Shown piece by piece: positions 2,747-15,447 of a DNA stretch of 64,000 bases; position 1 is the stretch's first letter, and each line of letters opens with the position of its first letter. The notes beneath the pieces were generated by a model. It was given only the letters and a program-made list of their open reading frames with translations, was not told the DNA's origin and made no database searches. The translations under genes were made by a program, and so were the position numbers. Source of the DNA: Acidobacteriota bacterium (GTDB lineage: Bacteria > Acidobacteriota > Terriglobia > Bryobacterales > UBA6623). Location: the NCBI GenBank assembly GCA_016125275.1, contig WGMB01000008.1, positions 1 through 64,000 on the forward strand, read 5' to 3'.

Positions 2747-4830
<2,084 letters not shown>

Positions 4831-10166: not shown

Positions 10167-11511
<1,345 letters not shown>

Positions 11512-11531
<20 letters not shown>

Positions 11532-12450
11532 GCTCAGCGCCACCGCCCTCGGCGCCGCCGCCGAGCGCTTTCTGGCGTCTCTGCGCCGCGCCCACGCCTC
11601 GGCCCACACCATCAAGGCCTACGAGGCGGACCTGCGGCAGTTCGCGGTCTATCTGGCGCCGCCCGGCGCCGCGCCGCCGGAGCCGGCCGCGATCGACAAC
11701 CTGACGCTGCGGGAGTTTCTGGGCGACCGGATGGCCGACGGGGCTTCGCGCCGCACCGTCAGCCGCAAGCTCTCCACCCTGCGGGTGTTCTTCGACTTTC
11801 TGGTGCGCGAAGGCTCGGCCCCCAAGAACCCGGCGCGGCTGCTCGACAGCCCCAAGCTGCCCAAGACGCTGCCGGCCGCGCCGACCGCCGAGGAAGCCAA
11901 CCGCATGATCGACGCCGTGCGCCCCGGCGAGGACGGCGAAGACGGCGCCTCCTTGCGGCGCGACCGGCTGGTGCTCGAGCTGCTCTACGGCTGCGGGCTG
12001 CGGGTCTCCGAGCTGGTCGGGCTGGACCTGGACGACATCGACCGCGCCGAGCGCTGGCTGCGGGTGCGCGGCAAGCGCCGCAAGGAGCGCGACACGCCCT
12101 ACGGCGCCCGCGCCGCCGAGGCCTTGGAGCGCTACCTGGAGGTCCGCGACGCTCCGCCCGCCCAGCGAGCCCTGTTCGTGCACCGCTGGAACGGCGCGTG
12201 GAAGCGGCTCACCGTCCGCAGCGTCGGACGCATCGTCAAGCGCTACGGCGTCGCCTTCGCCGGCGACCCGGACCTGCACCCGCACTCGCTGCGCCACGCC
12301 TTTGCGACCCATCTGCTCGGCGCCGGGGCGGACCTGCGGGCGATCCAGGAGCTGCTGGGCCACGCCAACCTCTCCACCACGCAGAAGTACACCCAGGTGT
12401 CGCTCGAAAAGCTGATGGAGACCTACGACAAGGCGCACCCGAAGGCCTGA
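11512..12450 (+). CDS. xerC: tyrosine recombinase XerC/D type
   Basis: 312 aa. A SAM-like N-terminal core-binding domain (about 15-105) precedes the catalytic domain, with the full set R164 (GLRVSEL), K188, H258-x2-R261 (HSLRH), H284 (LGHANLSTT) and the nucleophile Y293. It resolves chromosome dimers at dif. The ATG at 11512 overlaps the end of trmFO, implying translational coupling. This context and the absence of phage or IS genes nearby argue for the housekeeping enzyme rather than a mobile integrase. XerC cannot be told from XerD by sequence reading alone. Confidence 0.93.
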
Positions 12451-12506: not shown

Positions 12507-14723
12507 TTGCAGTACCCTTCGCGCCAGTCCGGTTTGTCGGCGGGAATCCGTTGGGCCGTTGTTCTATCGGCCTGCCTGGCGGCGTTGCTGATCCGCTGGG
12601 AGATGGGCCGCTCGATCGTCTTCGCCGAGCCCGGTTTCGTCTACCTGCAAGGCAACGACGCCTGGGCGCACGCCCGCTCCATCGACTACCTGACGCACAA
12701 CTTTCCGCACCGGCTGCTGTTCGACCCCTTCTCGGCTTGGCCCGACGGGCAGCCGGCCGGCATGGCGCCGCTGTTCAACGTGCTGGTCGCTGTCACGGCG
12801 CTGGCGCTGGGCGGCGGGACGCCGTCGGAGCTGTTGACGCACACCGTGCTGGCCTGGGCGCCGGTGGTCCTGGCGGCGCTGCTGCCCATTCCGGTGTGGC
12901 TGCTGGGCCGCAGGATGTTCGGCTCCGAGACGGCGGGCTTGGCGGCGGCTTGGTTCATCGCCCTGATGCCCGGCCATTTCCACTTTGTCTCCAAGCTGGG
13001 CTTTGGGGACCACCACATCCTCGAGACGCTGCTGGCCTGCACGGGCATGTTGGCGCTGGTGGAGGCGACCCTGTCCGACGGCCGGACCCGGCGGCGCTGG
13101 ACGGCTTTCGCCGCCGTGGTCTGGTCGGCGTATCTGGCCGCCTGGGTGGCCGCCGCGCTGCTGATCGGCGTGCTGGTGGCCTGGGCCGGGCTGGAGCTAC
13201 TGACGGCGCACTTGCGGCGGACCGAGCCGACCGACGTGGTGGGAATGCTGCTGCCGATCCTGCTGCTCGGCTGGCTGTCGATCCAGTTCGAGGCCCCGCA
13301 CGTCTGGACGCTCATCACGCAGGTCGCGCTGCCGTTCGGGCTGGCGGCGCTGCTGCTGCTGGCGGGCCTGTTTCGCCTCTCCCAGCGACGCGGCTGGCCG
13401 CTGTGGGCCGCTCCCGCGGGCGTGACGGCCGCGGTGGCCGCGATGGCGGCGGCCGGGGCCGTGGCGGCGCCCGCGCAGTTCGCCTTCATTCTCGACAAGG
13501 TCATGCTGGCCGCGCCCGACGCGCGCTACCAGACCATCGCCGAGATGCGTCCGCTGGTCGTCTTCAACGGCCCCTGGTTCTGGGTTCCCCTATGGGAACA
13601 GTTTCGGATGACGTTCCCGCTGGCCGTGGTCGGCGCGGCCTTCGCGTTCGAGAGCCGGGCGGCGATCGCGCCGCCGGTGCGCCGGCTGCTGCTGTTGTGG
13701 ACGGTCGTCTTCTTCGCGCTGTCGCTGATGGAGAACCGCGCGACCTACTATCTGGCCGTCAACCTGTCGCTGCTGGCCGGCTTCGCGCTCTCGGAGATCG
13801 CCCAGCGCCTGTCTCCGCCGCGCTGGCAGACGGCGGCCATGGCCGCGCTGGCGCTGTTCGCCGTACTGCCCGACGCCGCCGGCATCGAGGCGCAGTATGG
13901 CCGCTACTACCCGGTCTTCACCGACTACCGCAAGGCCTACGAGTACCTGCGGACGCAGACCCCCGAGCCGCTCGGCGCGGACGGCTTCTACGCGCGCTTC
14001 GTCCGTCCGCCGGAGGGCCAACCCTACCCTTACCCGCCCTCGGCCTACGGGGTGATGAATTGGTGGGACATCGGCCACCACGTGACGGCGCTCGGCCGCC
14101 GCATTCCGGTCGCCAACCCCTACCAGTCCGGGGCCGAAACGGCGGCGACGTTCTTCCTCGAACGCGATCCCGCCATAGCCGTCGAACAACTTCGCCAACT
14201 GCGAGCCCGCTACGTGATCGTCGGCCCCGACATGCTGATGAACCGGTTGGAGGACATGCACCCGGGCAGCGGAGGCATCGACACCATGCCGCAGTGGATC
14301 AATCGCCGCCGCAGCGACATGTACCGCATGGCGATTCGCGAGGAGCCCACCGTCGTCCGCCAGATGCTGGTCTTCTTCCCGGCCTACTTCGAGACGATGG
14401 CCGCCCGGCTGGCGCTCTACGCCGGCGAGGCGACTGAGGCGGAGTCGATCACGCTGGTGCGGCTCGAGCTCGACCAGGACGAATGGTGGGTGGAAGACGC
14501 CAAGAGCTTCGACACCGTTGACGAGCGCGCCGCCTTTCTGGCCGAGCACCCCGACGAAGGCTGGCAGGTGGCCAGCGTCAACCCGTATCACACCTGCGTG
14601 CCGCTCGAGGCCGCGCCCGGCCTGCGCCTGGCTTACAAGTCACAGTTCCGCACGTTGCCGGCGGTGAAGGTGTTCGAGGTGGACGACCACCCCGCGCCTA
14701 GTCTGCTAAGCGCCGCACCTTGA
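12507..14723 (+). CDS. STT3/AglB/PglB-like oligosaccharyltransferase
   Basis: 738 aa integral membrane protein. The N-terminal half has many transmembrane helices; the C-terminal part (from about 470) is a soluble extracytoplasmic domain. Three family motifs are present: D51 in GNDAWAHAR (first catalytic acidic site), D168-H-H-x2-E173 in GFGDHHILE, and W519-W520-D521 in NWWDIGHHV, the sequon-recognising WWDxG motif. The STT3 family transfers lipid-linked oligosaccharides to Asn in N-x-S/T sequons. The start is TTG at 12507; the ATG just upstream at 12480 closes after three sense codons. The last 26 nt overlap the convergent DUF1080 gene. No glycan-assembly genes adjoin it. Confidence 0.85.
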   Translation: MQYPSRQSGLSAGIRWAVVLSACLAALLIRWEMGRSIVFAEPGFVYLQGNDAWAHARSIDYLTHNFPHRLLFDPFSAWPDGQPAGMAPLFNVLVAVTALALGGGTPSELLTHTVLAWAPVVLAALLPIPVWLLGRRMFGSETAGLAAAWFIALMPGHFHFVSKLGFGDHHILETLLACTGMLALVEATLSDGRTRRRWTAFAAVVWSAYLAAWVAAALLIGVLVAWAGLELLTAHLRRTEPTDVVGMLLPILLLGWLSIQFEAPHVWTLITQVALPFGLAALLLLAGLFRLSQRRGWPLWAAPAGVTAAVAAMAAAGAVAAPAQFAFILDKVMLAAPDARYQTIAEMRPLVVFNGPWFWVPLWEQFRMTFPLAVVGAAFAFESRAAIAPPVRRLLLLWTVVFFALSLMENRATYYLAVNLSLLAGFALSEIAQRLSPPRWQTAAMAALALFAVLPDAAGIEAQYGRYYPVFTDYRKAYEYLRTQTPEPLGADGFYARFVRPPEGQPYPYPPSAYGVMNWWDIGHHVTALGRRIPVANPYQSGAETAATFFLERDPAIAVEQLRQLRARYVIVGPDMLMNRLEDMHPGSGGIDTMPQWINRRRSDMYRMAIREEPTVVRQMLVFFPAYFETMAARLALYAGEATEAESITLVRLELDQDEWWVEDAKSFDTVDERAAFLAEHPDEGWQVASVNPYHTCVPLEAAPGLRLAYKSQFRTLPAVKVFEVDDHPAPSLLSAAP

Positions 14724-15447
14724 TGGCCCGAAACCAGGCCGGCTTGCCGTGGTGCTGCAGCACGATGGGGCCGGAGCCGGGGCGTCCGTAGCCGGACATC
14801 TTGCGGAACTTCGTCTTCTCCACCTGCGCCAGCAGTTCCTTGGAGCCCAACTGGACCGTGAGGATCTTCTCGCCGTTGAGCCAGTGCTCGGCGGTGTCGC
14901 CGCGCACCACGATGCGGGCGCTGTTCCACTCGCCCGGCGGATGCGCGTTCTTGTGGGGCGGCGCGGCCAGCAGGTAGACGGCGCCGGTGGCGGAGAGCTC
15001 CCAGTCGGGCTTGGAGTGATCCAGGATGGCGTCGTCCATCATCTGGTACTCCAGCCCCACGGCCTGCAGGCGGATGCGCTGCTTGCGCTCGGCCGAGAGG
15101 TCGGGCCGGAAGCTGGCCGAAACCCACTCCGGCTGCACGATATACTTCACGCCGCTGTTGCCGCCCTCAGCGATCTTCCAGTCGAAGGCCAGCTCGAAGT
15201 TCTGGAACTCGTCGATCGTGCGCAGGTCGCCGCCGGAACCGTCCTCGGTCGTGCGCAGCGTGCCGTCCTCGACCACCCAGGTGCGCGAGGGAAACGGCGT
15301 GCGGTCCATGCCCATCCAGGCGCTGGTGTCGGAGCCGTCGAACAGCCACATCCAGCCGGCGGCCTTCTCCTCGGGCGTCAGCTTGGGCGGCGCGGCGACA
15401 GCCGTCGAGGCGACGGCCAGCAGGGTGCAAACAATCAGGGTTCTCAT
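14698..15447 (-). CDS. DUF1080 (3-keto-disaccharide hydrolase-type) secreted protein
   Basis: 249 aa. Signal peptide at 1-18 (MRTLIVCTLLAVASTAVA), then one concanavalin-like DUF1080 beta-sandwich with the hallmark GWMWLFDGSDTSAWMG start, the FELAFDWKI...GGNSGVKY core and the GEWNSARIVVRG strand. Members cleave 3-keto-glycosides made by partner oxidoreductases. It lies 6 bp downstream of the Gfo/Idh gene on the same strand, the usual pairing, so the two likely form an operon for extracytoplasmic glycoside breakdown. The substrate sugar is unknown. Confidence 0.9.
   Translation of the reverse strand: MRTLIVCTLLAVASTAVAAPPKLTPEEKAAGWMWLFDGSDTSAWMGMDRTPFPSRTWVVEDGTLRTTEDGSGGDLRTIDEFQNFELAFDWKIAEGGNSGVKYIVQPEWVSASFRPDLSAERKQRIRLQAVGLEYQMMDDAILDHSKPDWELSATGAVYLLAAPPHKNAHPPGEWNSARIVVRGDTAEHWLNGEKILTVQLGSKELLAQVEKTKFRKMSGYGRPGSGPIVLQHHGKPAWFRAIKVRRLAD

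Follow-up and report, generated by a model that had tools for sequence, protein, structure and literature searches.

Three STT3/AglB-type oligosaccharyltransferases and homologues of Alg1 and Alg2 suggest a eukaryote-like protein-sugar pathway in Acidobacteriota

The STT3/AglB-type gene and its neighbourhood

The window, that is, the whole stretch of 64,000 nucleotides that was analysed, carries a gene for an oligosaccharyltransferase (OST) of the STT3/AglB type, here termed paralogue A. The features at this locus are as follows; residues of the protein are compared with those of Archaeoglobus fulgidus AglB (AfAglB).

10167..11531, + strand: TrmFO, model score over the cut-off; a neighbour with no known role here
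11512..12450, + strand: XerC/D-type tyrosine recombinase, below model cut-offs; a neighbour with no known role here
12507..14723, + strand: STT3/AglB-type OST, paralogue A, 738 aa, TTG start uncertain (NCBIfam, Pfam, PDB, alignment A3)
12651..12659, + strand: GND metal motif; D51 aligns with AfAglB Asp47 (3waj alignment; PMC8342417)
13008..13016, + strand: DHH metal motif; D168 and H170 align with AfAglB Asp161 and His163 (alignments; PMC8342417)
13533..13544, + strand: TIXE motif (TIAE); E346 aligns with AfAglB Glu360 (alignments; PMC8342417)
14061..14069, + strand: WWD of the WWDYG motif (here WWDIG), residues 519-521 (alignment A3)
14220..14288, + strand: region of the DK/MI Ser/Thr-pocket motif, placed by a gappy alignment

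Paralogue A is encoded by an uninterrupted frame of 738 codons that opens with TTG, a start that is uncertain because no clear ribosome-binding site was seen upstream by eye and TTG occurs again in frame at codon 10. The NCBIfam model TIGR04154 (archaeosortase-associated archaeo_STT3) matched residues 18-713 at E 6.6e-108, which excludes a chance match, with a score of 362.2 bits that lies below the curated cut-off of 450; the other two STT3 paralogues of the genome scored 432.4 and 387.1 bits against the same cut-off. Pfam AglB_core (PF22627) scored 51 bits, above its cut-off of 27, and the Pfam scan reported no match of paralogue A to STT3 (PF02516), a model that both other paralogues pass. 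In a PDB search, AfAglB (3waj) aligned with residues 43-575 at E 2.3e-36; archaeal AglB chains were matched, and no PglB-labelled chain was found at E up to 1. Ten transmembrane segments were recognized in the protein by a simple hydropathy scan, and 13 are stated for OSTs (PMC8342417). The similarity to STT3/AglB that had been proposed in a preliminary description of this DNA is borne out by these model searches, and the gene is assigned to the STT3/AglB-type OSTs with high confidence from its sequence.

The gene follows trmFO and xerC, as had been described: TrmFO is over its model cut-off, the start of the recombinase gene overlaps the end of trmFO, and the recombinase, whose top model is XerC (295 bits, cut-off 335), is encoded 56 bp upstream of paralogue A. 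Ahead of this pair are genes for signal peptidase I, a TatA-family protein, and an HU/IHF-like protein that falls below its model cut-off, and beyond paralogue A are 3-keto-disaccharide hydrolase, Gfo/Idh, and PhoD-like genes. No glycan-assembly gene was found among the scanned neighbours, in agreement with the earlier placement of the gene outside a pgl cluster, so the donor must come from elsewhere. That part of the preliminary description stands, and it can now be extended since candidate donor genes occur elsewhere in the genome and beside the STT3 genes of relatives. The third-position GC content of paralogue A (GC3 of 0.91) is similar to that of neighbouring genes, and its composition thus shows no sign of recent import. 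A scan for promoters and terminators found 0 of each. It was also observed that a 3-keto-disaccharide hydrolase gene (PF06439) lies downstream of both paralogue A (window 14698-15447, convergent to it) and paralogue B (L006 12216-12911, on the same strand).

Catalytic residues and the Ser/Thr pocket

In AfAglB the metal is bound by the protein ligands D47, D161, and H163, and WWD and TIXE are described as OST motifs (PMC8342417). Of the motifs first noted in the sequence, GNDAWAHAR is at residues 49-57, GFGDHHILE at 165-173, and NWWDIGHHV at 518-526, with the ligands aligned to those of AfAglB. Alignment A1 has 15 rows, the window among them, and 14 retain all ten motif residues; the exception, L028, has T in place of the first W of WWD. 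In alignment A3, which comprises 48 rows (the window and 47 bacterial and archaeal relatives picked from 79 loci), D51, D168, H170, E173, E346, R411, W519, W520, and D521 are invariant in 48 of 48. Two outcomes that had been named as counting against an OST, loss of the acidic metal site and a closer match to a non-OST family of the GT-C class, can be set against these data: D51, D168, and H170 align with the AfAglB ligands in the sequence alignment, and the top matches are OSTs across most of the length.

The pocket Lys, present in many archaeal relatives (GKFxAM), aligns by a gappy alignment with Gly in paralogue A (GGIDTM), with Lys in paralogue B, and with Arg in paralogue C, and it is also absent from the named Bryobacterales STT3 proteins. 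A published rule states that OST paralogues within an organism all have the same type of pocket (PMC3703281); paralogue A may break this rule, or the gappy alignment may mislead.

Three STT3 paralogues in one genome

The OST gene of the preliminary description is one of three in the genome. Paralogues B and C, at C14:563047-565167 (37%) and C15:5211-7385 (36%), are both open frames that retain the ten motif residues. In a tree of 57 STT3 rows (46 left after manual thinning of the 79 named loci, and 11 others), A and B are sisters (support 97) within a set of 12 Acidobacteriota rows (support 95) that come from this genome (G000), G046, and named Acidobacteriota. Outside this set are the sequences from Chloroflexota, Planctomycetota, and archaea together with several other Acidobacteriota rows, including the STT3 of G377, which is placed with the other phyla. 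The terminal branch of paralogue A is the longest of the three paralogues, at 1.44 versus 0.98 and 0.99.

By our own gene calls, a gene for an ABC exporter of the MsbA/PglK class (L007:7430-9202) begins 2 bp after paralogue C. Residues 27-564 of the exporter align with Campylobacter jejuni WlaB/PglK (6hrc) at E 9e-60, two-halved exporters score higher than 6hrc, and both the PglK model (222.6 bits, cut-off 1000) and the MsbA model (257.1 bits) are under their cut-offs, so that the protein is assigned from sequence at the level of the MsbA/PglK class only. A separate observation is a 632-aa GT-C-like membrane protein (L006 1450-3348) encoded about 6.6 kb from paralogue B, for which no Pfam or NCBIfam match was found at E 0.01.

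Alg1 and Alg2 homologues and other candidate donor genes

Two genes of the same genome resemble those for mannosyltransferases of eukaryotic N-glycan assembly:

C14:183085-184281: Alg2 homologue, by similarity to yeast Alg2 (approximate sequence)
C14:184305-185513: Alg1 homologue, by similarity to yeast Alg1 (approximate sequence)

With approximate yeast sequences as queries, the Alg1 homologue matched yeast Alg1 nearly full-length (36% over 411 aa, E 5e-66) and the Alg2 homologue matched residues 9-370 of yeast Alg2 (34% over 366 aa, E 5e-69). The next non-Alg1 protein among 386 called proteins reached E 0.027, and the next non-Alg2 protein among 494 reached E 2e-4, totals in which some proteins are counted twice owing to overlapping loci. 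Random errors in these query sequences would be expected to depress the scores, not to inflate them. None of the Alg1-specific Pfam and NCBIfam models matched the Alg1 homologues, and a PDB search with these proteins returned nothing meaningful.

At C14:183-188 kb, alg2 and alg1 are adjacent on one strand with a second MurG-like gene (C14:186 kb) and murJ beside them. The MurG-like protein scores 187 bits on the MurG model, under the cut-off of 250, and MurJ is above its model cut-off and may serve peptidoglycan. We interpret a GT4-family gene and murG at C14:992-997 kb as the MraY-MurG pair of peptidoglycan synthesis, which would make the MurG-like gene near alg1 a spare copy, and a second, WecA-like gene of the GT4 family is found at C15:154254.

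About 11 kb from alg1 is a stretch with genes for an exosortase, an EpsB-type sugar transferase, a PEP-CTERM protein, and other functions of the exopolysaccharide type, a proximity that makes a role of the Alg genes in exopolysaccharide synthesis possible. The same stretch encodes Gmd, which is over its cut-off and suggests synthesis of GDP-mannose, and a GDP-fucose-synthase-like protein just under its cut-off. The exosortase and the PEP-CTERM protein are encoded at 3473-4369 and 16290-16934 of L173 (G000:C14:193000-212900), and whether exosortase sorting is connected with N-glycosylation deserves attention. The PEP-CTERM protein has one N-x-S/T site past residue 40; that it is an OST substrate is speculative. 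The envelope proteins of the window had earlier been suggested as potential substrates; a crude count over stretches of this genome found no enrichment of N-x-S/T over shuffled sequences, with 39 sequons observed versus 37.8 expected in 22 exported-like proteins and 79 observed versus 80.8 expected in 68 other proteins.

Distribution and co-occurrence in Acidobacteriota

STT3 was found in 5 of 61 near-relative genomes, this genome included, and in none of the 17 genomes of the same family within that set; Alg1 was found in 2 of the 61. Across a sample of 396 genomes of the phylum, matches at E 1e-10 were obtained in 15 genomes for STT3 and in 20 for Alg1, with 10 genomes carrying both (Fisher p 2e-11). 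When only strong matches are counted (E<1e-30, a line set after the matches were seen), STT3 is present in 11 genomes, Alg1 in 16, and both in 10 (p 3.7e-15), leaving 1 genome with STT3 alone and 6 with Alg1 alone, all six in one family. Counted by family, STT3 occurs in 7, Alg1 in 7, and both in 6 (p 9e-8, with 88 families assumed). Alg2 at E 1e-30 was limited to 2 of the 396 genomes, this one and G443, both of which also encode STT3 and Alg1. As the best 2 to 4 candidates were scored per genome, and 2 of the 3 STT3 copies of this genome were among the matches listed, absences are weaker than presences.

The association is strong, with exceptions. No Alg1 match was found in G377, which has a strong STT3 match in the phylum sample search, or in 3 of the 5 STT3-bearing near-relative genomes (G027, G035, and G057), indicating that it is not an obligatory partner. 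Conversely, six genomes of family f49 encode Alg1 (L175, L179-L182, and L187) without a convincing STT3, weak STT3 matches being present in 2 of them (best E 2.5e-6). The STT3-like matches in G102, G115, G158, and G337 have PW(S/Y)xGH in place of WWD and were for this reason not counted as strong STT3, although they entered the second, all-match Fisher test; their D-H-H motif is kept or nearly so, and these four loci (L042-L045) represent a divergent subgroup of GT-C proteins whose metal motif resembles D-H-H. A further candidate, L031 from G057, covers the C-terminal half only, has WWG, and is taken as decayed or incomplete.

A single-sequence scan of a contig collection found no relative, and an alignment-based scan found at least 567, from which 79 loci were retained. 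Close relatives among the matches listed at these 79 loci belong to Acidobacteriota, Chloroflexota, Planctomycetota, and archaea, which shows that the earlier picture of bacterial STT3 as known mainly from Campylobacterota and some Desulfobacterota was incomplete.

Physical linkage of Alg1 and STT3

At four loci (L078, L081, L085, and L089) from three Bryobacterales genomes and one Terriglobia genome, a stretch of about 7 kb contains genes for a MurG-like protein, Alg1, an ABC exporter, and STT3. These represent 4 of the 9 Acidobacteriota loci and 4 of the 79 loci kept from at least 567 matches; Alg1 was found in the STT3 flanks of none of the other 75. The MurG-like frame of L078 and the STT3 of L089 were missed by the gene caller and are based on tblastn and frame extension. 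Alg1 is also near STT3 in G046, G297, G383, and G443, giving 8 genomes in all, and in five genomes of family f27 it is found beside a GT4-type enzyme and an ABC exporter, away from STT3. At least one companion gene (MurG-like, ABC exporter, GT4-type, or Alg2) occurs near Alg1 in 15 of 15 genomes with both genes versus 0 of 6 in the STT3-free family f49, a contrast that is partly built in because the companion queries were derived from STT3-bearing neighbourhoods, and one f49 neighbourhood spans only 3.3 kb.

The Alg1 tree places this genome, G046, and the four named genomes with the linked genes in one set (support 100/98). The corresponding STT3 set (support 95) comprises the same lineages and, in addition, rows from G035 and G027, genomes without a detected Alg1. 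The f49 rows form a separate set of the Alg1 tree (support 99/97), in which 4 of the 6 were placed; the f49 frames of G288 and G219, missed by the gene caller, and G305, where Alg1 is in two pieces, are not part of the tree. At another locus (L038 1-2724), a single open frame that starts at the edge of the stretch encodes a WecA-like domain of the GT4 family and, after it, an ABC exporter of the PglK class, possibly a fusion of the first and the flipping steps of such a pathway.

A putative pathway and its alternatives

Homology, catalytic residues, gene linkage, and co-occurrence are observed, and together they are best explained by a bacterial N-glycosylation system in which single-subunit OSTs of the STT3/AglB type, three paralogues sharing one donor, would be served by a partly eukaryote-like assembly line, a reading that we consider probable. 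Sugars, carrier, step order, acceptor sites, and any division of labour among the paralogues are predicted from sequence as follows. Assembly would start with the WecA-like phosphosugar transferase of the GT4 family (C15:154254), and the second MurG-like enzyme (C14:186 kb) would take the part of eukaryotic Alg13/14 and add the next sugar. The Alg1 homologue and then the Alg2 homologue (C14:183-185.5 kb) would transfer mannose from GDP-mannose, and the lipid-linked glycan would be flipped by the ABC exporter encoded behind paralogue C or by MurJ. In the final step STT3 A, B, and C would draw on the one donor, made elsewhere in the genome. Paralogue A would act as a membrane-embedded enzyme that transfers a glycan, assembled beforehand on a polyprenyl (di)phosphate carrier, to the Asn of N-x-S/T in exported proteins, at the outer face of the inner membrane. 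That it draws its donor from the assembly line containing Alg1 and Alg2 is proposed with moderate confidence as the best-supported account of the donor, and to take the product for a Man-GlcNAc2 core of the eukaryotic type is a bold step. In its fullest form, which we put forward tentatively and with more doubt than belief, the lineage makes a lipid-linked Man-GlcNAc2 core with 1-3 mannoses by means of true relatives of Alg1 and Alg2, the three AglB-type transferases attach it to Asn, possibly on surface proteins sorted by the exosortase, and eukaryotic Alg1 has relatives here.

The OST could be real and still use a different lipid-linked donor, with the Alg1/Alg2/MurG-like module devoted to exopolysaccharide or another surface glycan. 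The position of the Alg genes of this genome near exopolysaccharide-type genes, the EpsB-type sugar transferase, the exosortase, Gmd, and the GDP-fucose-synthase-like gene fits this explanation, as do Alg1 without convincing STT3 in the six f49 genomes and STT3 without detected Alg1 in G377, G027, G035, and G057. It is nevertheless rather unlikely, given that Alg1 occurs in 10 of the 11 genomes with strong STT3 and close to STT3 in 8 genomes, and that the f49 Alg1 proteins are separate in the tree and have companions in 0 of 6 neighbourhoods. Alternatively, paralogues B and C could be the housekeeping enzymes and paralogue A could have drifted, whether to another acceptor preference, to mainly donor hydrolysis, or to loss of function. 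Its long end branch, the Gly at the archaeal pocket Lys position where B has Lys and C has Arg, the lack of a reported PF02516 match, and its solitary locus all fit such a protein; however, the ten motif residues are retained, the frame of 738 codons is open, the named Bryobacterales STT3 proteins likewise lack the Lys, and the loop alignment is uncertain, so that drift seems distinctly improbable. GT-C proteins share a common fold, and paralogue C gave a sub-threshold match to PMT_2 (21 bits, cut-off 26.1), which leaves some room for another polyprenol-dependent GT-C enzyme of the PMT or ArnT type. This is hardly credible in view of top matches that are OSTs over most of the length and of the presence of both WWD and TIXE (PMC8342417).

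Comparison with known systems

Accounts of bacterial N-glycosylation usually centre on Campylobacter and its pgl cluster. In a 2011 review, candidates for bacterial OSTs were limited to epsilonproteobacteria (PMC3068309), and Lombard (2016) placed bacterial Stt3/AglB sequences inside the euryarchaeal clade, could not identify the nearest relatives of Alg1 among prokaryotes, and raised the possibility that the enzyme arose within eukaryotes (PMC4973528). Alg1 belongs to family GT33 (PMC3797821). A literature search that covered neither CAZy nor most subscription papers found no description of acidobacterial N-glycosylation by STT3, OST, or PglB; Alg1, acidobacteria, and N-glycosylation all occur as terms in Cavalier-Smith and Chao (2020), with no passage on Alg1 in the portion covered by the search (PMC7203096), and an earlier notice of bacterial GT33 or acidobacterial STT3 is possible. 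In the bacterial group described here, an OST of archaeal type occurs together with Alg1 and Alg2 relatives, which suggests, at the level of sequence, a eukaryote-like protein-sugar pathway in Acidobacteriota.

The enzyme of the window resembles archaeal AglB of A. fulgidus (3waj, 5gmy) in its metal ligands and in the letters of GND, DHH, TIAE, and WWD; it differs in being bacterial, in lacking the pocket Lys by alignment, and in having Alg1 and Alg2 homologues as candidate partners. The donor of AfAglB is of the monophosphate type (PMC8342417). An aglB mutant of Methanococcus maripaludis has reportedly been complemented by other OSTs (PMC5131992). With the Campylobacter PglB/pgl system it has in common a bacterial OST and, at L007 and in the four named clusters, an MsbA/PglK-class exporter adjoining STT3, whereas the OST of the window lies outside any cluster and the candidates for adding sugars are homologues of Alg1, Alg2, and MurG. 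In Sulfolobus (Agl24/AglH), a MurG/Alg13-14-like enzyme makes the chitobiose core and the genes are scattered over the genome, as in the case proposed here (PMC8993221); that system is archaeal, and the available sections of the report describe no Alg1 or Alg2 homologue.

In the eukaryotic pathway, Alg1 and Alg2 are cytosolic mannosyltransferases. The acidobacterial homologues share with them 36% over 411 aa and 34% over 366 aa, respectively, as measured with approximate yeast queries, and are encoded by neighbouring genes on one strand. A bacterial Alg1 linked to an OST makes the question of the origin of Alg1 testable by phylogeny and enzyme assay, and such systems could be a source of new enzymes with which bacteria are made to assemble N-glycan cores like those of eukaryotes. 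The difference from the eukaryotic pathway is that the host is bacterial and that the roles of Alg7 and Alg13/14 would fall to WecA-like and MurG-like proteins.
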